Below, in pieces: positions 45,976 through 59,254 of a DNA stretch of 64,000 nt. The position numbers and the translations under genes are program-made. A model generated the notes under the pieces. The model saw only the letters and a list, made by a program, of their open reading frames with translations, was not told the DNA's origin and made no database searches. Within the stretch, counting starts at the first letter, position 1. Each line of letters starts with the position of its first letter. This DNA is from Bacteroidetes bacterium HLUCCA01 (GTDB taxonomy: Bacteria; Bacteroidota; Rhodothermia; Balneolales; HLUCCA01), in NCBI GenBank assembly GCA_001314545.1, contig LIHN01000001.1:712180-776179 (forward strand), given 5' to 3'.

Positions 45976-46893
45976 TTAGTCGTGAGCAGGTATGGAACTA
46001 AGCTCTTTGAAAGCGTCATAGCGAATCCGCAGCGACTCCTGGTCAAGGTCGATCAGTCGCTCCGGACCGAAACGCTCAACGCAGTAGCTGGCCATGACCG
46101 AGCCGTAAATCACGGCGCGACGCATGTTTTCAGCGCTCAGGTCACCGCTGGCCGCCAGCCAGCCCACAAACCCGCCCATGAAGGTATCCCCGGCACCGGT
46201 AGGATCAAAAATGTCGAGAACCGGAAATGCGGGAGCTGAAAAAATTTCATTCTCCGTGAAGAGCAAGGCCCCGTGCTCACCTTTTTTGATGATCAGCGTC
46301 CTGGGTCCCATATCCTGAATGGCCACGGCTGCCTTGACCAGATTCGATTCATTGGAAAGCTCCCGGGCTTCCGAGTCGTTGATGATCAGCACGTCTACCC
46401 GCTTGAGTGTCTGCAGCAGGTCATCCTTGGCACCCTCGATCCAGAAATTCATGGTATCGCAGATTACCAGCTTCGGATTGTCAACCTGGTCGAGCACCAT
46501 TGACTGCAGCGCCGGGGCGATGTTGCCCAGACATACAAAGTCGCACTTTCGCAGATTATCCGGAATAACCGGCTTGAAATGCTCGAAGACATTCAGCTGG
46601 GTATCCAGGGTGTCCCGGGAGTTCAGGTCAAAATGATAACGACCTGCCCAGAAAAACGTCTTTCCGGATGCATCGACCGTCAGTCCGTCCAGGTTGACGC
46701 CGCGATTACGGAGCGTCTGCAGGTCAGCTTCGGCAAAATCATTGCCGACAACGCCCACCAGATTAACCTCGGGCGTGAAGTACGATGCGGTCAGGGACAG
46801 GTAGGTAGCCGAGCCACCCAGGATACGGTCGCGTTTGCCGAACGGCGTTTCAATACCATCGTAGGCAACCGACCCAACTACAAGAATGCTCAT
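45976..46893 (-). CDS. PfkB-family sugar/nucleoside kinase
   Basis: This 305-residue ribokinase-fold kinase phosphorylates an alcohol of a sugar or nucleoside with ATP. The N-terminal GSVAYDGIETPFGKRDRILGGSATY contains the PfkB Gly-Gly motif, and the second signature DPTGAGDTFMGGFVGWLAA holds the catalytic Asp and the anion hole. The substrate is not evident. Its general form is close to adenosine-kinase-like PfkB members often annotated as sugar kinase in this phylum. I chose the ATG at 46893 (MSILVVGSVAYDG), because the longer frame to 46977 adds a non-conserved stretch. It is upstream of rdgB, which might suggest nucleoside salvage (inference). Confidence 0.88.
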   Translation of the reverse strand: MSILVVGSVAYDGIETPFGKRDRILGGSATYLSLTASYFTPEVNLVGVVGNDFAEADLQTLRNRGVNLDGLTVDASGKTFFWAGRYHFDLNSRDTLDTQLNVFEHFKPVIPDNLRKCDFVCLGNIAPALQSMVLDQVDNPKLVICDTMNFWIEGAKDDLLQTLKRVDVLIINDSEARELSNESNLVKAAVAIQDMGPRTLIIKKGEHGALLFTENEIFSAPAFPVLDIFDPTGAGDTFMGGFVGWLAASGDLSAENMRRAVIYGSVMASYCVERFGPERLIDLDQESLRIRYDAFKELSSIPAHD

Positions 46894-46989
46894 GTGTATA
46901 CGTGTTTTTAAAAATGGGTAATGCGATGCGGCAGAAACATCATTTTCATCGCGCGAAAAATTCATCGGAAAATACACAACCTTGCCGGG

Positions 46990-47798: not shown

Positions 47799-49295
47799 AT
47801 GGAAAAATACATCCTAGCCCTTGATCAGGGTACCACAAGTTCACGCGCCATTTTGTTCAATAACAGTGGCGAGATTGTCTCGGTCGCTCAGAAAGAGTTT
47901 CGTCAGATTTATCCCAAGGCCGGATGGGTTGAGCACGACGCTCAGGAGATCTGGTCGAGCCAGGCCGGTGTTGCTGCCGAAGCCGTGGCTGCTATAGGGG
48001 CTAACGGGCTGAATCTGGCCGCCATCGGAATTACCAATCAGCGTGAGACTACCGTAATTTGGGAGCGGGAATCAGGCAAGCCGATACACAATGCCATTGT
48101 ATGGCAGGATCGGCGTACGGCCGAGTACTGTGACGAGCTGAAAGCCAGGGGCCTGGCCGAAAAAATTCAGCAGAAAACCGGTCTGGTGGTGGATGCCTAC
48201 TTCTCCGGAACCAAGGTCAAGTGGATCCTGGACAATGTAGAAGGTGCCCGTGAGCGCGCGAAAAAGGGCGAGCTGGCCTTCGGGACGATCGATTCCTGGC
48301 TGGTGTGGAACCTGACACGCGGCGATCTGCACATCACCGATGTTACCAATGCCTCCCGGACCATGTTGTTCAACATCAACACCATGGACTGGGACGATGA
48401 AATCCTCTCCATCATGGACATCCCCCGGGAACTCCTTCCCGAAGTCAAGCAAAGCAGCGAGGTGTACGGCAACACCAAAACCACCATCTTCGCCAGCAAA
48501 ATCCCCATCGCGGGCATCGCGGGCGACCAGCAGGCAGCGCTTTTCGGACAGATGTGTACCAAACCCGGCATGGTTAAAAACACCTACGGTACGGGTTGCT
48601 TTATGCTCATGAACATCGGCGACAAGCCGGTTCCTTCCAAAAACAATCTGCTTACCACGGTAGCCTGGAAAATCAACGGGAAAACCGAGTATGCGCTGGA
48701 AGGATCCATTTTCATCGCCGGTGCCGTTGTGCAATGGCTGCGTGACGGACTGGGCGTAATCCGCGAGTCGCGCGATGTTGAGTATTTTGCCAACAAAGTT
48801 GACGACTCTGACGGCGTGTATCTGGTTCCGGCCTTTGCCGGTCTGGGCGCCCCCTACTGGAACCAGTATGCACGGGGCACCATGGTAGGCATTACCCGCG
48901 GAACGACGGCCGCTCACCTGGCGCGCGCAGCACAAGACTCCATCGCCTATCAGACCCTGGATGTCCTGGGTGCGATGCAGGCCGACTCCGGCATCGATAT
49001 AGCCGAGCTGCGGGTTGACGGCGGTGCAACGGTCAACGACACCCTCATGCAATTTCAGAGCGACATCCTGCAGGTTCCGGTCTCCCGTCCGAAAGTGACC
49101 GAAACCACGGCATTGGGCGCCGCCTACCTGGCCGGACTGGCCGTCGGGTACTGGAAAGATGTGGATGAAATCCGCAAGCAATGGCAGGAAGACCGCAAGT
49201 TCAGCCCGGAAATGGAAGACGCCAAAGTTGCCGAACTGACCCGGGGCTGGAAGCGGGCCATCAAGGCCGCTCAGGTCTGGGCAGACGATAAATAA
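47799..49295 (+). CDS. glpK: Glycerol kinase GlpK
   Basis: This 498-residue FGGY-family kinase converts glycerol and ATP to glycerol 3-phosphate. Motifs are [17 protein letters not shown] (phosphate 1), [33 protein letters not shown] (glycerol-binding region), [13 protein letters not shown] (phosphate 2) and [21 protein letters not shown] (adenosine motif). The length is that of bacterial GlpK. GAAGGAAA precedes the ATG by about eight bases. Downstream glpF gives the usual kinase-facilitator pair. Control by the GntR/UTRA protein and by a cre-binding factor is inferred from upstream sites. Confidence 0.97.
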
Positions 49296-49451: not shown

Positions 49452-50216
49452 ATGAGTCCTTTCTTAGGTGAATTCATTGGTACCGCCATCCTGATTCTAT
49501 TGGGTAACGGCGTGGTTGCCAACGTGGTTCTGAATCAGACCAAAGGCAACAACAGCGGCTGGATTGTCATTACCCTGGGTTGGGGTATGGCGGTATTTAC
49601 CGCAGTTTATGTGACCGGCCAGTTCAGCGGGGCACATATCAATCCGGCTGTGACCGTGGGTCTTGCAACGGCCGGACTATTCGACTGGGCCATGGTTCCC
49701 ATGTACATCGGCGCACAGATGCTCGGCGCAGCCTTCGGCGCCCTGCTGGTATGGCTGGCCTACAAAGACCACTTCGCCGCAACCGAAGATGGTGGCGCCA
49801 AGCTGGCCGTCCACTCCACCGGTCCCGCCATCCGCAACACCGGATCGAATCTGATCACCGAGATCATCGGTACCGTTATGCTGGTTTTCGGCGTGTTCTA
49901 CCTGGCAAGCCCCGGCTTTACCTCCATTGACGGGGAGTTACTGCAGGCCATAACCATTGACGGACAGCAGGTCGGGTTCGGACTGGGATCACTCTCTGCC
50001 CTGCCTGTAGGTCTGCTGGTACTGGCCATCGGCCTGAGCCTTGGCGGTCCGACCGGATACGCCATCAACCCGGCACGCGACCTGGGTCCGCGTATTATGC
50101 ATGCCATCCTGCCTATTCCCAACAAAGGAAGCAGCGACTGGGGCTACGCGTGGATTCCGGTGGTTGGTCCGATTCTCGGTGCCGTTATCGCCGCTTACAT
50201 CTTTATGGCGTTTTAG
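49452..50216 (+). CDS. glpF: Glycerol uptake facilitator GlpF (MIP/aquaglyceroporin)
   Basis: This 254-residue channel has six membrane helices and both pore motifs, HINPAVTVGLA and AINPARDLGPRI. The Asp after the second NPAR is the aquaglyceroporin mark, so glycerol rather than only water should pass. It opens FLGEFIGTAILILLGNGVVANVVL, as in GlpF. The ribosome site AGGAGA lies nine bases before the ATG. It follows glpK by 156 bases. Dihydroxyacetone could also enter through it, which would suit the dhaKLM genes downstream (inference). Confidence 0.95.
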   Translation: MSPFLGEFIGTAILILLGNGVVANVVLNQTKGNNSGWIVITLGWGMAVFTAVYVTGQFSGAHINPAVTVGLATAGLFDWAMVPMYIGAQMLGAAFGALLVWLAYKDHFAATEDGGAKLAVHSTGPAIRNTGSNLITEIIGTVMLVFGVFYLASPGFTSIDGELLQAITIDGQQVGFGLGSLSALPVGLLVLAIGLSLGGPTGYAINPARDLGPRIMHAILPIPNKGSSDWGYAWIPVVGPILGAVIAAYIFMAF

Positions 50217-50392: not shown

Positions 50393-51109
50393 ATGAAAAA
50401 AAAACTGTTAACGGCCACATCGCTGCTCATGCTGGGCATGCTGGCCATCCCAACCCATACCGCAACCGCACAAGACCTGAGCGTTGATGCAGGCATGACC
50501 CTCACCAGCCGATTTATTTACCGTGGCGCTGAACTCGGAAACTCACCCAACGTTCAGGCCATGGTTGGCATCAACTCCGGGGGCTTCTCCCTGTACGGAT
50601 GGGGATCGCACAGCCTCGGCCAGGACGACAACGCCTACAAAGAAGTGAAATTCTGGGCCAATTACACCCTGGATCTGGGTGAATTCAACCTGACGCCACA
50701 GATCGAAAATCATTTCAACGCATATACTGATTTGTTTGATTTCGATGAAAACACCACCACCCATGTCTTTCAGGCTTCGGCAAAGCTGGCCGGAAAGGGC
50801 GAGGCAGCCCCGGACCTGATGATCGGGTACGCATTCGGAAGCCCCGTTGAAGGCACCATCTACGCTGAAGCAGGCTACGCTTTCGCCTCCGGCGACTATG
50901 GGATGCGGGCATTCGTATCAACCCAGTATTCCGACGGACCCGGATTCGTTGATCTGGGATACAACAGCAAGTTTGTAGTTAACCAAATTGGCGTTTCCGC
51001 AAGCCGGACCCTGCAAATATCTGATTCCTTCAGCCTGCCTCTGGGCATCTCGCTGATTGTGAATCCGAAAACCGAGCGCATCTTCACCGCAGCAAGCTTC
51101 AGCTTCTGA
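50393..51109 (+). CDS. Small outer-membrane protein, TorF-like porin candidate
   Basis: This 238-residue protein has a signal peptide (MKKKLLTATSLLMLGMLAIPTHTATAQ) and a beta-rich body ending in an aromatic residue (AASFSF), as outer-membrane barrels do. The opening LSVDAGMTLTSRFIYRGAELGNSPNVQAMVG resembles the TorF putative porin family. I chose the ATG at 50393 for the signal peptide. It lies between glpF and dhaK and ends in its own strong terminator. Context suggests an outer-membrane channel for glycerol or dihydroxyacetone, but this is unproven and the family has no firm function. Confidence 0.75.
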   Translation: MKKKLLTATSLLMLGMLAIPTHTATAQDLSVDAGMTLTSRFIYRGAELGNSPNVQAMVGINSGGFSLYGWGSHSLGQDDNAYKEVKFWANYTLDLGEFNLTPQIENHFNAYTDLFDFDENTTTHVFQASAKLAGKGEAAPDLMIGYAFGSPVEGTIYAEAGYAFASGDYGMRAFVSTQYSDGPGFVDLGYNSKFVVNQIGVSASRTLQISDSFSLPLGISLIVNPKTERIFTAASFSF

Positions 51110-51195: not shown

Positions 51196-52269
51196 ATGAA
51201 AAAACTCATCAATAACCCCGACGACGTACTGCGCGAGCAGCTTGAAGGCATGCAACTGGCCCACCACGACCTGATACACATACATCTGGATCCGGCGTTC
51301 ATCACCCGAAAAGAGGCCACCCCGAAAGGTAAGGTCGCCCTTATCTCCGGCGGCGGCAGCGGACATGAACCCATGCACGGCGGTTTTGTGGGATACGGCA
51401 TGCTGGATGCGGCCTGCCCCGGTGAAATATTCACCTCCCCCACACCCGACCAGATGTACGAGGCAGGCAAAGCCGTTGAAGCCGGTGCAGGTATCCTCAA
51501 CCTGGTCAAGAACTACACCGGCGATGTAATGAACTTTGAAATGGCGGCCGATATGCTCATGGCCGATGGCATCAAGGTACAGAATCTGATTATCGATGAC
51601 GATGTAGCCGTTAAAGACAGCCTCTACACCGCCGGTCGACGCGGCGTCGGAACCACGGTCCTCATGGAAAAAATTGTAGGCGCCGCTGCCGAAGACGGTT
51701 ATACCCTGGAGCAGCTCTCCACCCTGGCCCGGAAAGTAAACCGGTATGGCAGAAGCATGGGAATGGCACTGACCTCCTGCATCACACCGGCCAACGGCTC
51801 CCCCAGCTTTGAAATCGGCGATGACGAAATGGAAATCGGTATCGGCATTCACGGTGAGCCCGGCATTCAGCGTGAAAAAATGAAAACCGTGGATGAAATC
51901 ACCGAAATGATGACCCTGGGCATACTCGAAGATCCGGCCTATCACCGCCAGCTGCGTGCGTGGAGCCCCGAAAAAGGAGAATGGATTGATGTGGCAGAAA
52001 CCGATGAGCCCTTCGGCAGCGGCGACCAGGTGATCGCGTTTGTCAACAGCATGGGCGGTACTCCGGTGAGCGAACTGTATGGCGTGTATCGCAAGATGAA
52101 CGAAATCATCGAAAAAAAGGGACTCACGGTGGTTCGCAATCTCATCGGCCCCTACATCACCTCCCTTGAAATGCAGGGCTGCTCGATAACCCTGCTGAAG
52201 GCAGACGAGGAAATCCTGAAATACTGGGACGCCCCGGCACACACTCCGGCCCTGCGTAAGGGCATGTAA
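51196..52269 (+). CDS. dhaK: Dihydroxyacetone kinase, substrate-binding subunit DhaK
   Basis: This 357-residue subunit binds dihydroxyacetone covalently through a His as a hemiaminal. Motifs are [41 protein letters not shown] near the start, [16 protein letters not shown], and [15 protein letters not shown] with the reactive His. The length matches E. coli DhaK. In PTS-type systems DhaL carries ADP as cofactor, rephosphorylated by DhaM. All three subunits are here, but dhaK is separated from dhaL by a strong terminator. Confidence 0.96.
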
Positions 52270-52530: not shown

Positions 52531-53157
52531 ATGATTACCAAATCTCACCTTATTGAATGGCTGCGTGCATGCGATGCCATCTACACAGAAAACAAAACCT
52601 ATCTGACCCAGCTGGATACGGCCATAGGCGATGCCGATCACGGAAACAATATGCATCGGGGGTTCAGAAAAGTGGGAGAACAGCTGGATTCATTGGCTGA
52701 CAAAGACATCGGAGCTCTGCTCAAAGCCGTTGCCATGACCCTGATTTCAACTGTCGGAGGTGCATCCGGACCCCTGTACGGTACCTTCTTCCTGCAGGCC
52801 GCGGGCAAGGCATCCGGCCTGAATGAACTTAATGCCGCGCAAATGGCGGATGTACTGGAAGCTGGCATCGGGGGCATAAAAATGCGGGGCAAAGCCTCTG
52901 CGGGCGACAAAACCATGCTGGATGCCTTTATCCCCGCACTGGAAGCCTTCCGTACCACACCCGATGATCTCCAAACAGCTCTGAACAACGCTGCCGATGC
53001 CGCCGAAAAAGGCGCCGAAGACACCATCCCCCTGATTGCCCGGAAAGGCAGAGCCAGCTATCTGGGCGAACGTAGTCGGGGCCATAAAGATCCCGGTGCC
53101 ACATCGGCCGCCATGATGTTGCGCGAACTGGCCAAAGCAGCTGAAGGAGACGCATAA
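52531..53157 (+). CDS. dhaL: Dihydroxyacetone kinase, ADP-binding subunit DhaL
   Basis: This 208-residue all-helical subunit holds ADP/ATP with two Mg ions and transfers phosphate to dihydroxyacetone on DhaK. The Mg-nucleotide motif is DTAIGDADHGNNMHRGF near residues 29-45. ISTVGGASGPLYGTFFLQAA, KMRGKASAGDKTMLDAF and RASYLGERSRGHKDPGATSAAMML are also conserved. The length fits the family. Its stop is immediately followed by the dhaM-fusion ATG with no gap, so the two are coupled. Confidence 0.96.
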   Translation: MITKSHLIEWLRACDAIYTENKTYLTQLDTAIGDADHGNNMHRGFRKVGEQLDSLADKDIGALLKAVAMTLISTVGGASGPLYGTFFLQAAGKASGLNELNAAQMADVLEAGIGGIKMRGKASAGDKTMLDAFIPALEAFRTTPDDLQTALNNAADAAEKGAEDTIPLIARKGRASYLGERSRGHKDPGATSAAMMLRELAKAAEGDA

Positions 53158-55587
53158 ATGACCGGTATCGTCATTGTATCACATAGTGCGGAGCTGGCTG
53201 AAGGACTCCGTAAACTGGCCGGACAAATGGGACAAGGAAAAGTCCCTCTGGCCGCGGCCGGAGGAATCGACGATCCGGACGAGCCCATCGGCACCGATGC
53301 GATGAAAATTCTGGAAGCCATTCAGCGGGTATATAGCGAAGATGGCGTGATTGTCTTCATGGACATGGGCAGCGCCATTCTGAGCACTGAAATGGCGCTG
53401 GACTTCCTGGATGAAGATCAACGCAGCAAGGTAGTGCTGTCCCCCGCCCCCCTGGCCGAGGGCGTGATCACGGCAGTGGTCACCGCGGCCACAGGAGCTT
53501 CCCGGCAGGAAATCCTCCGGGAACTCGACCATGCGCTGACCGGCAAGCAGTCCCAGCTGGGACATACCACCCGGACTGCTGCTGACACCCGCCAGTCTGT
53601 ACCGGATGAGACCTCCGATTTCAGCCATTCCGGCACGTTTACCCTGGAAAACACCCTCGGACTTCACGCCCGGCCTGCAGCCCGGATGGCCACCATCGCC
53701 GGTAAATACGAGGCCGATATTCAGCTGCGTAACCTCACCCGGGAGACCGACTTCGTATCTGCACGCAGTATCAATGCGCTGATTGGTCTGCAGGCCGTAA
53801 GGCAGCATACCCTGGAACTGCGGGCAGCCGGCAATCAGGCTGCCGAAGCTTTTTCTGAACTCACCGGACTCCTGCAGCGACACTTCGATGAATCCACCGA
53901 TCCGCCCGGTCGCACACCGGAAAATCCCAAAGAAACACCGAATCCACATCGTATCAATGGCATTTCCGTGGGTGCAGGTGTGGCTGTAGGACCGGTATTT
54001 CAGTTCACTGTCAGCCCATCTGATGTTAAACCGGAGCATAGCCAAAACCCTGCCGATGAAAAAGAACGGCTGCGCGCTGCTCTGGATAAGGCCGTGGGCG
54101 AACTTGATGAAATTGCCTCCCGTAATCTGTCGGCCGGCGATGCTGAAATCTTTCAGGCACACAAACTCATCGTCACAGACCCCGAGCTGCTCAGGGATGT
54201 ACATCGCAGCATCGATAAGGACCATTTCACGGCCGATTACGCCTGGTGGAAAGCCATAGAACAGTACACGGCATTATACCGCGCTTCTTCCAGTCCTGTG
54301 CTGGCAGAACGGGCCGCAGACGTGCAAGACGTCGGCGGCCGGGTGCTCAGACACCTCTGCGGGGACCCAGACCACAGCCCGGTACCCGATGAACCATCCA
54401 TTCTGGTTACCGATGAGCTCTCCCCTTCGGCGGCGGCCAGCCTGGACAGCAGGTTGATTATCGGAATTCTGACCGAACGCGGCAGCGCTACCTCCCACAG
54501 CGGTATTCTGGTCAGTTCTCTGGGAATTCCTGCCGTTTTCGGCGTCAGCAACGCCATCGAAAAATGCAGGACAGGCCAGCAAATCATCCTGGACGGTGAT
54601 AATGCCCGGGTGTATATCAAGCCTACCGCCCACCAGCTGGAACAGATGAAACGGCGGAGGGATAACTGGCTGAAAACCCGGTCGATGGCCGATGGAATCA
54701 AACTGGAGCCGGTCTGCGCCCCGGATGGAGACCCACTGGAGGTTCTCAGCAATGTATCTTCTCCGGAACACGTGAAAACATCTGTTGAGAACGGAGCTGA
54801 GGGTATCGGGCTGTACCGCACCGAATTTCTGTTTATGGGCAGGTCGGAAGCGCCCGATGAAAACGAGCAGTACGAAACCTACCGGCAGGCGCTGCAGGCC
54901 ATGGGTGGGAAACCGGTCACTTTCCGCACCATCGACATCGGCGGAGATAAACCGGTCGACTACCTGAGTATTGAAAAAGAAGCCAATCCCTTTCTCGGCT
55001 GGCGGGGTATCCGGTTTTCATTGGACCGCAGGGACGTATTCCGCACACAGATCCGGGCGCTGCTGCGGGCATCGGCTCACGGTCCGCTCAGGATTATGTT
55101 CCCCATGGTAGCCACGGTGGATGAGTGGCAGCAGGCCCGGAAACTGACGATGCAGGCCGGTGAACAGCTCCGCTCAGAGGGCATTGCCTACCAGGAGAGC
55201 ACGCCTCTGGGTATCATGGTGGAGGTTCCTGCTGCAGCACTGTGCATAGAGGACTTTTTATCCGAGGTGGATTTTGTCAGTATTGGCACCAACGACCTCA
55301 CGCAGTACGTCATGGCCGCCGATCGCATGAACGGTAAAGTAGCCGCCCTGGCATCCTATCACCAACCGGCCGTACGTAAACTCATTGAAACCACCATCCG
55401 CGCTGCACGCCGGCACAAGGTGCCGGTATCCATGTGCGGGGAAATGGCCCGGGATACCGGAGTCACCCGACTGCTGCTTGACTACGGGCTTCGTAGTTTC
55501 AGCATGAATGCCGGGGCAATTCCCGAGTTCAAGCTCTTTGTGCGCAACCTCAGTGCAGACGGACCATCCGGAGCATCTTCACATTAA
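53158..55587 (+). CDS. dhaM: DhaM-HPr-Enzyme I fusion, PEP-dependent dihydroxyacetone kinase phosphotransfer protein
   Basis: The 809-residue chain joins three phosphocarriers. Residues 1-130 are the EIIA-Man-like DhaM domain (VIVSHSAELAEG, active His9; VFMDMGSAILSTEMAL). Residues about 158-245 are HPr (NTLGLHARPAARMATIAG, His170). Residues about 265-800 are Enzyme I, with the phospho-His in GSATSHSGILVSSLGIPAVFG (H447) and a complete PEP-binding barrel: EGIGLYRTEFLFMGR, TIDIGGDKPVDYL, NPFLGWRGIRFSLDR, VSIGTNDLTQYVMAADR and the catalytic Cys in VSMCGEMARDTG (C760). E. coli DhaM has only a truncated EI part, so this version could take phosphate straight from PEP. It ends the dhaLM unit and regenerates ATP on DhaL. 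Confidence 0.94.
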   Translation: MTGIVIVSHSAELAEGLRKLAGQMGQGKVPLAAAGGIDDPDEPIGTDAMKILEAIQRVYSEDGVIVFMDMGSAILSTEMALDFLDEDQRSKVVLSPAPLAEGVITAVVTAATGASRQEILRELDHALTGKQSQLGHTTRTAADTRQSVPDETSDFSHSGTFTLENTLGLHARPAARMATIAGKYEADIQLRNLTRETDFVSARSINALIGLQAVRQHTLELRAAGNQAAEAFSELTGLLQRHFDESTDPPGRTPENPKETPNPHRINGISVGAGVAVGPVFQFTVSPSDVKPEHSQNPADEKERLRAALDKAVGELDEIASRNLSAGDAEIFQAHKLIVTDPELLRDVHRSIDKDHFTADYAWWKAIEQYTALYRASSSPVLAERAADVQDVGGRVLRHLCGDPDHSPVPDEPSILVTDELSPSAAASLDSRLIIGILTERGSATSHSGILVSSLGIPAVFGVSNAIEKCRTGQQIILDGDNARVYIKPTAHQLEQMKRRRDNWLKTRSMADGIKLEPVCAPDGDPLEVLSNVSSPEHVKTSVENGAEGIGLYRTEFLFMGRSEAPDENEQYETYRQALQAMGGKPVTFRTIDIGGDKPVDYLSIEKEANPFLGWRGIRFSLDRRDVFRTQIRALLRASAHGPLRIMFPMVATVDEWQQARKLTMQAGEQLRSEGIAYQESTPLGIMVEVPAAALCIEDFLSEVDFVSIGTNDLTQYVMAADRMNGKVAALASYHQPAVRKLIETTIRAARRHKVPVSMCGEMARDTGVTRLLLDYGLRSFSMNAGAIPEFKLFVRNLSADGPSGASSH

Positions 55588-55704: not shown

Positions 55705-57165
55705 TTACTCCGGTATAACGTACCACATGGGATTGGCTTTGGCCTTGTAAATAAACCCATGATGCAGTAAATGTTTAATCCAGTGTCCGGCCAATCCGAT
55801 TTCGCCGGTGGTGTAGCGCAGGGAGCGACCCGTCTCCGGGAATAGCTCATAGTTGGGCACGATAGGATGTACCGTCATAGACACGGCGGACCCGTCGAAG
55901 AAGCCTTTGCCGACGGATGCAATGCAGGCTGCACCCATACGCGCCATAGACGACTTCCGCGTGGGTTCCTCTGCCCGTCCCAGCATCATATCAACGATAT
56001 TCAGTGCGGTTTGTCGACCAATTACCCCGCTGGGCATGCCGGTTCGAGGCGGAGTCGGGAAAATGGGCGTTCCAGAAGGACTCTTCATCGGCTTGGAAAT
56101 GGAATGGGGCGGGGCAAAGGCGATGCCCACCGCAAACAGATTGCTGTATTTCGGGTTCTGGTAGGTCTCCGGCCAGTCAGACGGACTCCACTGCTCATAC
56201 GGCTTGCCGCTGTAATCGGCATCCACCTTCATAAATCCGTTCGGGGCAAAAACCTCGCCGGTTATATCGGTTCCGGCCTTGTCAAAAGCCTTCATCCCCA
56301 CCCCGGAAAACGGAGGCAGCAACATCGCAAAATCGAACTCCATTTCACCCTCATCGCCTGAAATCGTTTCGTATTTGAGTTTTTTCTCCTGAATTTCGGT
56401 GACTCCCGCCTGGGTGGTCCACTCCACGCCCCGCTCGGCGAACAACGACTCAGCGAAGATGTTGCCCGGCGTCACGTATCCTCCCTGACGCATATGCACC
56501 CCGCCCATCCCGAAATCACCCAGGGCAAATTCGTTGGATATCCAGTGGATGTCGGCCTTGTGGCGGACGCCGGCCTTACGCAAGGCATGCTCCACATTGA
56601 AGGTATATTCGAAGGCGGCACCCTGGCAGGTACACATTCCATGGCCGGTACCGATCAGGATTTTCTGGCGTTCTCCGGCCTTCATCCTGCCGATGGATTC
56701 CTGCAGGTGCTCCCAGGCTTCGGCTGCGTGACCGTAGGTACACACCGAGGTAGTATGTCCGCCGTGGGGTCCAAGGCCCGGTGTCTTCGCGAATTCCAGT
56801 CGCGGACCGGTGGCGTTGATCAGGTAATCAAAGGTAACTCGGCCGGTCTGGCCGCTGCGGGCCTCATCGGTATACGCAATCTCAACAAAAGGTCGGGGTT
56901 CGTCGGTCTTCCCCTCCGGATAAATGGCCGTAGCTTTGGCCTGAATAAGCTCCATTCCCAGCTTCTTATACACATTGGGCAGCTGGAAGGTAACCTGTTC
57001 GGGTTTCATGGTACCCGCACCCACCCATATATTGGATGGAATCCAGTTGTAGTTTCGGTTGGGCGTAATAACTACAACCTCATGTTTACCTTTGAGTTTA
57101 CGCCACGCATGCATAGCAGCGGTGTGCCCGGACACGCCGGCACCCAGTACGACCAGTTTTCCCAT
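55705..57165 (-). CDS. FAD-dependent oxidoreductase, sulfide:quinone oxidoreductase-like
   Basis: This 486-residue two-Rossmann flavoprotein is of the SQR/FCSD type. The N-terminal FAD motif is LVVLGAGVSGHTAAMHA. ITPNRNYNWIPSNIWVGAGTM and FDYLINATGPRLEFA fit SQR relatives. Cysteines that could be redox-active are in TTSVCTYGHAAEAWE, GTGHGMCTCQGAAFEY and GAACIASVGKG. No membrane helix is seen; SQRs attach as peripheral proteins. I start at the ATG at 57165, because GGAGAG lies eight bases upstream and the FAD motif begins at once; an upstream frame to 57210 adds nothing conserved. Sulfide oxidation is the best guess, but the family includes other quinone reductases. Confidence 0.8.
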   Translation of the reverse strand: MGKLVVLGAGVSGHTAAMHAWRKLKGKHEVVVITPNRNYNWIPSNIWVGAGTMKPEQVTFQLPNVYKKLGMELIQAKATAIYPEGKTDEPRPFVEIAYTDEARSGQTGRVTFDYLINATGPRLEFAKTPGLGPHGGHTTSVCTYGHAAEAWEHLQESIGRMKAGERQKILIGTGHGMCTCQGAAFEYTFNVEHALRKAGVRHKADIHWISNEFALGDFGMGGVHMRQGGYVTPGNIFAESLFAERGVEWTTQAGVTEIQEKKLKYETISGDEGEMEFDFAMLLPPFSGVGMKAFDKAGTDITGEVFAPNGFMKVDADYSGKPYEQWSPSDWPETYQNPKYSNLFAVGIAFAPPHSISKPMKSPSGTPIFPTPPRTGMPSGVIGRQTALNIVDMMLGRAEEPTRKSSMARMGAACIASVGKGFFDGSAVSMTVHPIVPNYELFPETGRSLRYTTGEIGLAGHWIKHLLHHGFIYKAKANPMWYVIPE

Positions 57166-57457
57166 ATTGCTCTCCACTATTGATAGATGGGGCGATGTGA
57201 ACCGAATCACGGCGCAATCGCCTATCCTGCAATAAGCATATAAAAAAGCCGAATGTCAATTTAAACCGGCGAAAAACACACGCTGACAGCAGGGAAAATA
57301 GCACAGGCACACGCACGCACCAGCAAACGCACCGGTACAGGCATCAGGTATTGACCATCTTCGGACCCCGGACTTAGAGCCCTGCCCATCTTGCCGGGCG
57401 ACCGGCACTATGCAGCAATTGCCAGCCCCGGTTGCCATCGGTCAGAGCAGCCGTCTG

Positions 57458-58378
57458 TCAGGAAACCGTATGATTGGCGGCCGTTGCCCGCACCACTTCA
57501 CGCCGACGGTTAAACTCGAAGTCGATCCGGCCCAGTACGATGCCGGCAAACCCGACCTGAGAGATAATGGTCACACTGCCGTCATCCTTGCGGATACGTT
57601 CCGGAGCATCCATGAAGGTATGGGTGTGCCCGCCGATGATCAGGTCAATGCCACGGGTCTGGGTGGCTACCGTTACGTCATCTACCCGGGCAGGATTTTC
57701 GTAGTTGTAACCCAGATGACTCAGACAAACCACCAGGTCACATTTGTAGTCGTAACGAAGCCGGTTGGCCTGATACTGCGCCAGTCGGACCGGGTGCCGG
57801 TAGGCAACCCCCTCGTGCAAAGCCGGGAGCACCAGTCCGTCAAAATTGATCCCCAGCCCGAAAATCCCAACCTTGATCCCGTCAACATCGCGCACGATAT
57901 TTTCTTTGACGTAATCGGCCATGGGCGAGGTCCCGAAATCATAGTTGGCATTCACGAAAGGGAACTCTGCCTCGCCGGCAACCTCCACAAAGCCGTCAAT
58001 TCCGTTGTCAAATTCGTGATTTCCCGGGGTGGATGCATCGTAGCCCATCTGCGACATCACCTTGAAGTCCAGTGCACCCTTGTAGTAGTTGAAGTAGGGG
58101 GTCCCCTGAAACACATCACCGGCGTCCAGCAGCAAAACATTCGGATTCTCCGCACGGATACGTCCTACCAGGCTGGCACGTCGTGCCACACCGCCCAAAC
58201 CGGCATAGCGTGAAGCGTTTTCAGGAAACGGATCGATGCGGGCGTGGGTGTCATTGGTGTGCAGGATGGTCAGCTGACGGGTACCGTTACCGGCATAGCT
58301 GAGCAGCGGCGTCACGGAGGTGAGTCCCAGGCCCAGTCCGGCGGCCGACATACGTCTGAGGAATGTTTTTCTATCCAT
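57458..58378 (-). CDS. 5'-nucleotidase-type metallophosphatase, N-terminal half protein
   Basis: This 306-residue exported calcineurin-like phosphatase holds the catalytic domain of a UshA-type 5'-nucleotidase. The metal motifs are LTILHTNDTHARIDPF (DxH), LLLDAGDVFQGTPYF (GD), TPGNHEFDNG and IIGGHTHTFMD. The N-terminus MDRKTFLRRMSAAGLGLGL resembles a signal with paired arginines, Tat-like but not canonical. The C-terminal substrate-specificity domain is encoded separately just upstream (58493-59254), a split seen in several Bacteroidota. The gap is 114 bases. Together they likely release nucleosides and phosphate from extracellular nucleotides. Confidence 0.9.
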   Translation of the reverse strand: MDRKTFLRRMSAAGLGLGLTSVTPLLSYAGNGTRQLTILHTNDTHARIDPFPENASRYAGLGGVARRASLVGRIRAENPNVLLLDAGDVFQGTPYFNYYKGALDFKVMSQMGYDASTPGNHEFDNGIDGFVEVAGEAEFPFVNANYDFGTSPMADYVKENIVRDVDGIKVGIFGLGINFDGLVLPALHEGVAYRHPVRLAQYQANRLRYDYKCDLVVCLSHLGYNYENPARVDDVTVATQTRGIDLIIGGHTHTFMDAPERIRKDDGSVTIISQVGFAGIVLGRIDFEFNRRREVVRATAANHTVS

Positions 58379-58492: not shown

Positions 58493-59254
58493 TCATTCAT
58501 CAGTCAGGCGGATGCGGCCTTCCAGCTGGTAGTCCAGCACCCTTCGGTGACGGATATACTCAATCATGGCATCGCGGATCAGCACGGGCAGGTCGATGCG
58601 TTCACGGGCCTGCATAAATACATCCATCCCATCGCCTCCGTCAGCCACATAACTGTTGGTTGCAACCCAGTACTCCTGGTTCCTGCGAAGCGGCTCTGCG
58701 CCCACGAGGATGTCCACGGCCCGGCCGTCTTCAATGCGAAACCGGATACCGCTGACGGGCTCCCCCCGCCGGGCGGCAATCTGGTCGGCCAGCATACGGA
58801 CCTGCTCGCCACTGAGCAGCAGCACACTGATGGTGTTTTCAAAAGGCATCAGCTCGTAAATATTGCCGATGGTGATTTCACCCCCGGGCAACGGGGCCCG
58901 GAGACCGCCAAAGTTGGCAATACCGATGTGTACGGGTTGACCGAGTTCACGAACGGCTGCCGAGCGGAGGATATCGGCAGAGAGATTGTTGAGGGTGCCT
59001 TCGGGCCGGCCCCGGGTGATGGGGGTCTCGGAGCGGGCGATGACCGTATTCATGCGCGACTGCAGGTCTGCGGCATACACAGCAACCAGGGCAACCATCG
59101 CCGAATCTTCCGGAATCTGATCGTCCAGCTGGTAGAAGGTATCTGAGCTGGATTCCAGTTCCAGTACGTACGAGGGCGAGGTACATGCCAGACTTCCGGT
59201 TACCAGCAGCAGCACGAGCAGGTTACGGGTCCACGACGGTCCGGTGAATTTCAT
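58493..59254 (-). CDS. 5'-nucleotidase C-terminal domain lipoprotein
   Basis: This 253-residue lipoprotein (lipobox TGSLAC, Cys24) is the substrate-binding C-terminal domain of a split UshA-like 5'-nucleotidase. Motifs are RPEGTLNNLSADILRSAAV, HIGIANFGGLRAPLPGGEITIGNIYELMPFENTI and YWVATNSYVADGGDGMDVF. The specificity residues that stack on the base are normally Phe, and NTISVLLLSGEQV with surrounding aromatics fits. It lies in the same orientation directly before the metallophosphatase gene. The two proteins probably assemble in the periplasm or at the outer membrane. Confidence 0.9.
   Translation of the reverse strand: MKFTGPSWTRNLLVLLLVTGSLACTSPSYVLELESSSDTFYQLDDQIPEDSAMVALVAVYAADLQSRMNTVIARSETPITRGRPEGTLNNLSADILRSAAVRELGQPVHIGIANFGGLRAPLPGGEITIGNIYELMPFENTISVLLLSGEQVRMLADQIAARRGEPVSGIRFRIEDGRAVDILVGAEPLRRNQEYWVATNSYVADGGDGMDVFMQARERIDLPVLIRDAMIEYIRHRRVLDYQLEGRIRLTDE

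Follow-up and report, generated by a model that had tools for sequence, protein, structure and literature searches.

A DhaM-type multiphosphoryl transfer protein as the only Enzyme I found in Bacteroidetes bacterium HLUCCA01, and probable displacement of the housekeeping Enzyme I in its lineage

In the genome of Bacteroidetes bacterium HLUCCA01 (G000 below), dhaK and dhaL are followed directly by a gene in which a DhaM-type EIIA, an HPr and a full-length Enzyme I (EI) are fused. This arrangement raises the question of what the fused EI serves: the dihydroxyacetone kinase alone, or also the other phosphotransferase system (PTS) components of the cell. The locus lies in the window, a 64,000-nucleotide stretch of contig LIHN01000001.1 (positions 712,180 to 776,179, forward strand), where the row of genes reads glpD, ITPase-like, PfkB-like (these three named by eye), glpK, glpF, porin-like, dhaK, dhaL, the fusion, a flavoprotein gene and a nucleotidase pair. 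The presence of glp genes in the same row as the fusion suggests glycerol catabolism as a possible source of dihydroxyacetone. The features, with positions in the window, are listed below; G296 is a congener of G000, G297 belongs to the same family, and L010 is from the MAG PBR18_bin42.

45976-46977, minus strand: PfkB-like gene (named by eye), marking synteny on the left side; present also in G296, L010 and G297
47799-49295, plus strand: glpK, glycerol kinase (TIGR01311, above cut-off)
49452-50216, plus strand: glpF-like MIP channel (TIGR00861, above cut-off)
50396-51109, plus strand: putative porin-like protein (no Pfam match, named by eye); most related loci that were read also have it next to glpF
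51196-52269, plus strand: dhaK (TIGR02363, 478 bits, cut-off 406.25)
52531-53157, plus strand: dhaL (TIGR02365, 251.4 bits, cut-off 138.3)
53158-55587, plus strand: EIIA(Man)/DhaM, HPr and full-length EI fused in 809 aa (one open frame, profile matches, alignment)
53158-53547, plus strand: EIIA-Man (DhaM) domain of the fusion with active His9 (Pfam residues 3-119, TIGR02364, alignment with E. coli DhaM)
53632-53877, plus strand: HPr domain with His170, Arg172 and Ser204 (Pfam residues 159-240, alignment)
53956-54603, plus strand: N-terminal part of EI, HPr-binding subdomain and phospho-His domain with His447 (Pfam residues 267-385 and 411-482, alignment)
54712-55551, plus strand: C-terminal PEP-binding barrel of EI with Cys760 (Pfam residues 519-798, 365 bits, catalytic residues aligned)
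57458-58378, minus strand: metallophosphoesterase gene flanking the locus, a synteny marker kept in G296 and G297

The ATG of the fusion is at the base right after the dhaL stop codon, with GGAG eight bases upstream. The first-pass annotation, made from the letters alone, had placed DhaM, HPr and a full EI in one chain at 53158-55587, and these coordinates are correct. Matches above the Pfam cut-offs cover the chain in order, EIIA-man at residues 3-119, PTS-HPr at 159-240, PEP-utilisers_N at 267-385, the mobile His domain at 411-482 and PEP-utilizers_C at 519-798. The protein scores 516.8 bits against the EI profile TIGR01417 (cut-off 341.7), with nine catalytic residues included, and 125.9 bits against the DhaM profile TIGR02364 (cut-off 98.25), as a DhaM-type EIIA-Man with the active His9. 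It stays below the cut-offs of the E. coli-type profiles NF008382 for PtsI (451.6 bits, cut-off 824) and NF008478 for DhaM (373.2 bits, cut-off 520); the fusion has a PEP-binding domain that is absent from E. coli DhaM. Identical residues number 211 of the 544 aligned with E. coli PtsI and 156 of the 459 aligned with E. coli DhaM. Alignment with E. coli PtsI, PtsH and DhaM identifies the active residues as EIIA His9, HPr His170 and Arg172, and EI His447, followed in the PtsI alignment by Arg554, Arg590, Arg616, Glu689, Asn712, Asp713, Arg723 and Cys760. The EI residues are the counterparts of E. coli EI H189, R296, R332, R358, E431, N454, D455, R465 and C502. The earlier numbering of His9, His170, His447 and Cys760 was right, and the PEP-binding barrel is complete as had been proposed, with none of the catalytic residues lost in the alignment of EI with PtsI. 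A frame artefact is ruled out by the single open frame and by similar fusions in other genomes among the matches listed.

The truncation of the EI part in E. coli DhaM (b1198), also stated in the first-pass annotation, agrees with the alignment. Like the fusion, the E. coli protein has EIIA, HPr and the phospho-His domain of EI but, at 472 aa, it ends just past that domain and, unlike the fusion, has no PEP-binding domain. DhaK and DhaL, encoded immediately 5' of the fusion, are both complete and above their family cut-offs. DhaK His57 and His219, and DhaL Asp29, Asp34 and Asp36, align with E. coli DhaK and DhaL, respectively, and by these counterparts are presumably the functional residues. 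PEP would phosphorylate His447 of the fused EI, from which the phosphate would pass to HPr His170, to EIIA His9 and on to DhaL-ADP, with DhaK then transferring it to dihydroxyacetone. Each of these predicted steps follows from the DhaKLM mechanism, as given in the available part of PMC3863723, together with the residues seen. With a full EI and with DhaK and DhaL intact and adjacent, the chain thus appears to hold a complete relay from PEP to DhaL, as the first reading of the sequence had supposed.

This architecture is not new. With EIIA-Man, HPr and EI in one chain and dihydroxyacetone kinase genes adjacent, the fusion is an IIAMan-type multiphosphoryl transfer protein, and an EIIA-Man, HPr and EI protein encoded beside dhaK was already published in 2008, as the accessible text of PMC2405797 documents. 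There, Comas et al. (2008) state that IIA-Man multiphosphoryl transfer proteins are "invariably associated" with dihydroxyacetone kinase genes. The Vibrio parahaemolyticus protein, used in a test in that paper, resembles the fusion in having EIIA-Man, HPr and EI in one chain and dihydroxyacetone kinase neighbours, and the codes amhe given in a figure legend for Desulfovibrio vulgaris and Photobacterium profundum are read as the same domain order. According to the same partial text, E. coli DhaM is a reduced form that lost its EI part because the general EI took over its work. The accessible text describes no case in which such an EI is the only EI of a genome with the native ptsI gone. Among the papers listed from an open-access collection that mostly excludes subscription journals, none has a title or abstract start reporting that a DhaM-type EI took the place of a housekeeping EI. 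What appears to be new here is the genomic role of a known architecture.

That role depends on the other PTS components of G000, a draft genome of 3.37 Mb in 22 contigs that is 98% complete. The only EI found is the fusion. Matches to PF02896 comprise the fusion and one 906-aa frame (288 bits) which, with 91.5 bits against TIGR01417 (cut-off 341.7), was rejected as a second EI and is taken for pyruvate phosphate dikinase. The first-pass annotation had envisaged a relay independent of general PTS enzymes, which would suit an organism lacking sugar PTS. This was borne out in so far as no separate EI, no PTS_EIIC (PF02378, the only EIIC family searched) and no second EIIA-Man was found; the searches with PF02378, PF03610 and PF07475 covered the window's own genome only. 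It does not hold for the remainder, as G000 has a separate HPr, in which the His15 and Ser46 equivalents are kept, an HPr kinase (HPrK) and an EIIA-Ntr gene located directly before a sigma-54 activator gene. This gene set looks like that of a regulatory PTS, which needs an EI, and the presence of a separate HPr, HPrK and EIIA-Ntr makes it probable that the EI is not dedicated to dihydroxyacetone. As the only EI found in a 98% complete draft with HPr and EIIA-Ntr present, the fusion is a candidate for the housekeeping EI of a regulatory, PTS-Ntr-like chain. Among 40 relatives, a PF00359 EIIA was found in all 40 and HPr in 39. More than one PF00359 match occurs in 36 of the 40 and, in G000, an 862-aa frame (C7, L170 2840-5428) combines an Na/H exchanger, Usp and a weak EIIA_2 domain.

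In most of these relatives, the EI that would serve such a chain is encoded beside ptsH. Full match tables, read by hand, place an EI match within 150 bp of the separate HPr in 35 of the 39 relatives that have one. Of the four exceptions, G315 has the pair on two different contigs; the others are G000, the congener G296, and G297. EI above cut-off is present in 37 of the 40; G302 and G312 have partial EIs only, and in G317, which is 80% complete, both HPr and EI are missing. In G000, G296 and G297 the usual neighbours of ptsHI in other genomes are all present: on one side a small gene for a carbohydrate-binding module, on the other a gene that looks by eye like gatC, followed by one more gene. 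Only ptsI is absent. The gaps between open frames where ptsI would be expected measure 283, 156 and 162 bp, respectively, and with three native EIs as queries no remnant of ptsI was detectable at these ptsH loci (best E 0.18). A further member of the family, G298, still has ptsI beside ptsH. In the comparison of 17 ptsH loci, of which 14 were chosen for having an EI near HPr and three for its absence, so that 14 of 17 is not a frequency, a protein of ~100 aa with an AMPK1_CBM/CBM48 match is encoded near ptsH in 14 (for example L165 9572-9943).

The absence of ptsI could be apparent only, with the fusion an ordinary dha protein, a native ptsI lying in an unassembled part of the genome and nothing displaced. 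That G000 is a 98% complete assembly in 22 contigs leaves some room for such an oversight. The native locus is, however, assembled through in three genomes without ptsI, and G296 (96% complete) and G297 (82%) also have a single EI above cut-off each, of the dha type, so that we consider a missed native gene very unlikely.

In both G296 and G297 the sole EI above cut-off lies at the locus that corresponds to the window's, with the PfkB-like gene on one side and the nucleotidase pair on the other. DhaK was not found in a search of either genome, in the case of G297 an absence from an 82% complete draft in which the EI locus itself is assembled. The row of G296 follows that of the window except that dhaK, dhaL and the flavoprotein gene are missing, as are the domains EIIA and HPr. 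The row of L010 is the same as that of G296 as far as the end of its contig; G297 additionally lacks glpK, glpF and the porin-like gene. By tblastn (E limit 10), nothing other than the EI gave a match below E 0.1 to dhaK, dhaL, EIIA or HPr at the G296, L010 and G297 loci. In G296 the EI match begins at fusion residue 239, thereby taking in the linker and the last residues of the HPr domain. The free EIs of G296, L010 and G297 each retain all nine catalytic positions, and His15 is kept in the separate HPr of G000, G296 and G297.

Two further features were noted at the locus. The Pyr_redox_2 flavoprotein gene at 55705-57210 (minus strand), between the fusion and the nucleotidase pair, was not found at the G296 or G297 locus. 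The pair itself appears to be a split 5'-nucleotidase, made up of the metallophosphoesterase at 57458-58378 and a C-terminal-domain gene at 58493-59254 (both minus strand), and the split is kept in G296 and G297.

These comparisons can be set against the reading that the fusion is a dedicated one-protein relay, in which the fused EI and HPr serve the dihydroxyacetone kinase only and the separate HPr, phosphorylated only on Ser by HPrK, needs no EI. The tethering of the three relay parts beside DhaK and DhaL fits such dedication, as does the occurrence of DhaK in 10 of the 40 relatives, exactly the 10 that have a second HPr match. It does not explain why G296 and G297 have kept a catalytically complete dha-type EI without DhaK, DhaL, EIIA or the HPr domain; with these gone, the separate HPr is the only plausible partner left for that EI. 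Nor does it account for the retention of His15 in the separate HPr of all three genomes, or for the coincidence that an EI beside ptsH is missing in just those three genomes whose only EI is of the dha type. Nine of the ten DhaK-bearing genomes have an EI beside ptsH (partial in G312), and G000 is the exception; this distribution also fits a fused EI that serves the separate HPr. We regard an exclusive relay as unlikely.

A family of the same order, f2, indicates the direction of change. All six f2 loci read hold dhaK, dhaL, EIIA, HPr and EI in that order, with one EI cut by a contig end and one carrying an in-frame stop, and in five of the six the porin-like gene lies between glpF and dhaK. 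The stop, a single in-frame TAG within the EI part of the G314 fusion (C209; L111, about 3355), points to either a pseudogene or an assembly error. The f2 genomes also have a separate EI beside ptsH. Since the f2 loci all have the full operon, the full dha operon is likely the ancestral state and the free EI derived.

The phylogeny of EI is consistent with this order. A tree (IQ-TREE, LG+C20) was built from 56 rows chosen from 106 non-identical ones, some of which are partial copies of one gene, leaving out the G314 fusion with its stop and the fusions of G022, G304, G310 and G312, which are fragments. The EIs of the window, G296 and L010 group together with support of 100/93, G297 joins them with 100/96 and four f2 dha fusions then join with 100/96. 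Far from these, a clade of 31 rows (100/100) unites the order's native EIs with EIs from other orders and classes of the phylum. Forcing the EIs of the window, G296, L010 and G297 to group with 21 native EIs, a clade named after the tree had been seen, is rejected with a p-AU of 6e-62, and the same constraint on the EI of G297 alone, a long branch in the tree, is rejected with a p-AU of 3e-4. Displacement of the housekeeping EI by the dihydroxyacetone-relay EI is thus well supported, by synteny and by phylogeny. Holding the three free EIs as one clade gives a p-AU of 0.465, compatible with one or with two events in which EI was freed. The same value would also accommodate the reverse history, in which a free EI beside glpK is older and the EIIA-HPr part in the window was fused to it secondarily. 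This would require an independent origin of an identical fusion, which is improbable given that the f2 EIs are the nearest outgroup and that the f2 loci hold the same genes in the same order, and we give this history hardly any credence.

Displacement followed by freeing of the EI might have left traces on the surface that contacts HPr. Among 532 alignment columns with enough rows, the EIs of the lineage match the native EIs against the fusions in 4, and the fusions against the native EIs in 30. The four native-like columns correspond to E. coli positions 111, 187, 221 and 437. The HPr-binding subdomain, with 109 of the 532 columns, contains one of the four. Given 4 native-like and 30 fusion-like columns, the comparison was not taken as evidence for adaptation of the HPr-binding surface. 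At position 111, which we take to lie in the HPr interface, Tyr or Phe is present in all 21 native EIs and in all four dha-type EIs of the lineage; at this single site, nine f2 fusions have Val (six) and Phe, Met and Ile (one each).

The history that these data point to begins with a full dha operon in genomes that also carried ptsHI. In the lineage leading to G000, the native ptsI would have been lost from the ptsHI operon and the EI of the fusion would have taken over its work. The fusion would then phosphorylate the separate HPr and, by way of this HPr or of its own HPr domain, EIIA-Ntr. In the relatives, deletions would have removed dhaK and dhaL as well as the EIIA and HPr domains, with the EI alone kept to serve HPr. 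That the fusion feeds the separate HPr and EIIA-Ntr is proposed because it is the sole EI found, and the strongest argument for it is that the relatives kept an intact EI after the dihydroxyacetone-specific parts had gone, in genomes from which native ptsI is lost. We consider it likely that a DhaM-type multiphosphoryl transfer protein, the only EI found, has displaced native ptsI and works for the dihydroxyacetone kinase as well as for the separate HPr and EIIA-Ntr, and that its EI alone has been retained in relatives. Domains, residues, gene content, the loss of ptsI from its place and the phylogeny are observed, while enzymatic activity, transfer to the separate HPr and the sequence of the losses are inferred. 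The dual use in G000 is probable. We lean slightly towards a more specific statement, that a catabolic multiphosphoryl protein displaced the housekeeping EI of the lineage and energises HPr and EIIA-Ntr, with the free EI of the relatives serving that chain alone and, in G000, one EI shared competitively between dihydroxyacetone flux and the regulatory PTS.

Feeding of a regulatory chain by a fused EI may have a precedent, by analogy, in Pseudomonas putida. FruB, like the fusion an EI-bearing protein of a sugar branch, is held to pass phosphate to the regulatory PtsN, and PMC3562155 ascribes to it the phosphorylation of PtsN in mutants of ptsP and ptsO. FruB of Pseudomonas differs in having a fructose-type EIIA (PMC2405797, partial text), and P. 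putida keeps its own regulatory EI, PtsP.

If the fused EI does energise both chains, the supply of glycerol or dihydroxyacetone could directly set the phosphorylation of HPr and EIIA-Ntr. The case looks like the mirror image of the reduction published for E. coli, in that the EI of a pathway made PtsI dispensable and then outlived the pathway. Related genomes with both EIs, with the fused EI only or with the freed EI only would allow the choice of HPr partner by EI to be tested directly, and the same set would allow a test of how glycerol catabolism connects to the regulatory PTS. For annotation, there is the warning that a gene named 'DhaM' may encode the only EI of a cell. PMC3863723 puts forward the hypothesis that dihydroxyacetone arises by overflow in brines. 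The GlpK of Firmicutes has a motif with a His that is the target of phosphorylated HPr. Control of this kind was considered for the window's glpK product and dropped, with no such His seen by eye in its sequence.

Comparable proteins occur outside the phylum. On a plasmid of Vibrio rumoiensis (NZ_AP018688.1), dhaK and dhaL are followed by a fusion of 799 aa (WP_089139191.1) that is 39% identical over query residues 1-801 and has the same nine EI catalytic residues. Its locus differs in being on a plasmid, with a glycerol dehydrogenase gene upstream and dhaR downstream. Among the 473 plasmid records with a match, 45 have a single place where 80% or more of the query is covered; of five records that were opened, one has three separate genes and one a fructose-type protein. 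An unfused arrangement is also seen on a Chloroflexota contig (L018 5995-8414), where EIIA-Man, HPr and EI are encoded by three separate adjacent genes ~4 kb downstream of dhaK and dhaL.
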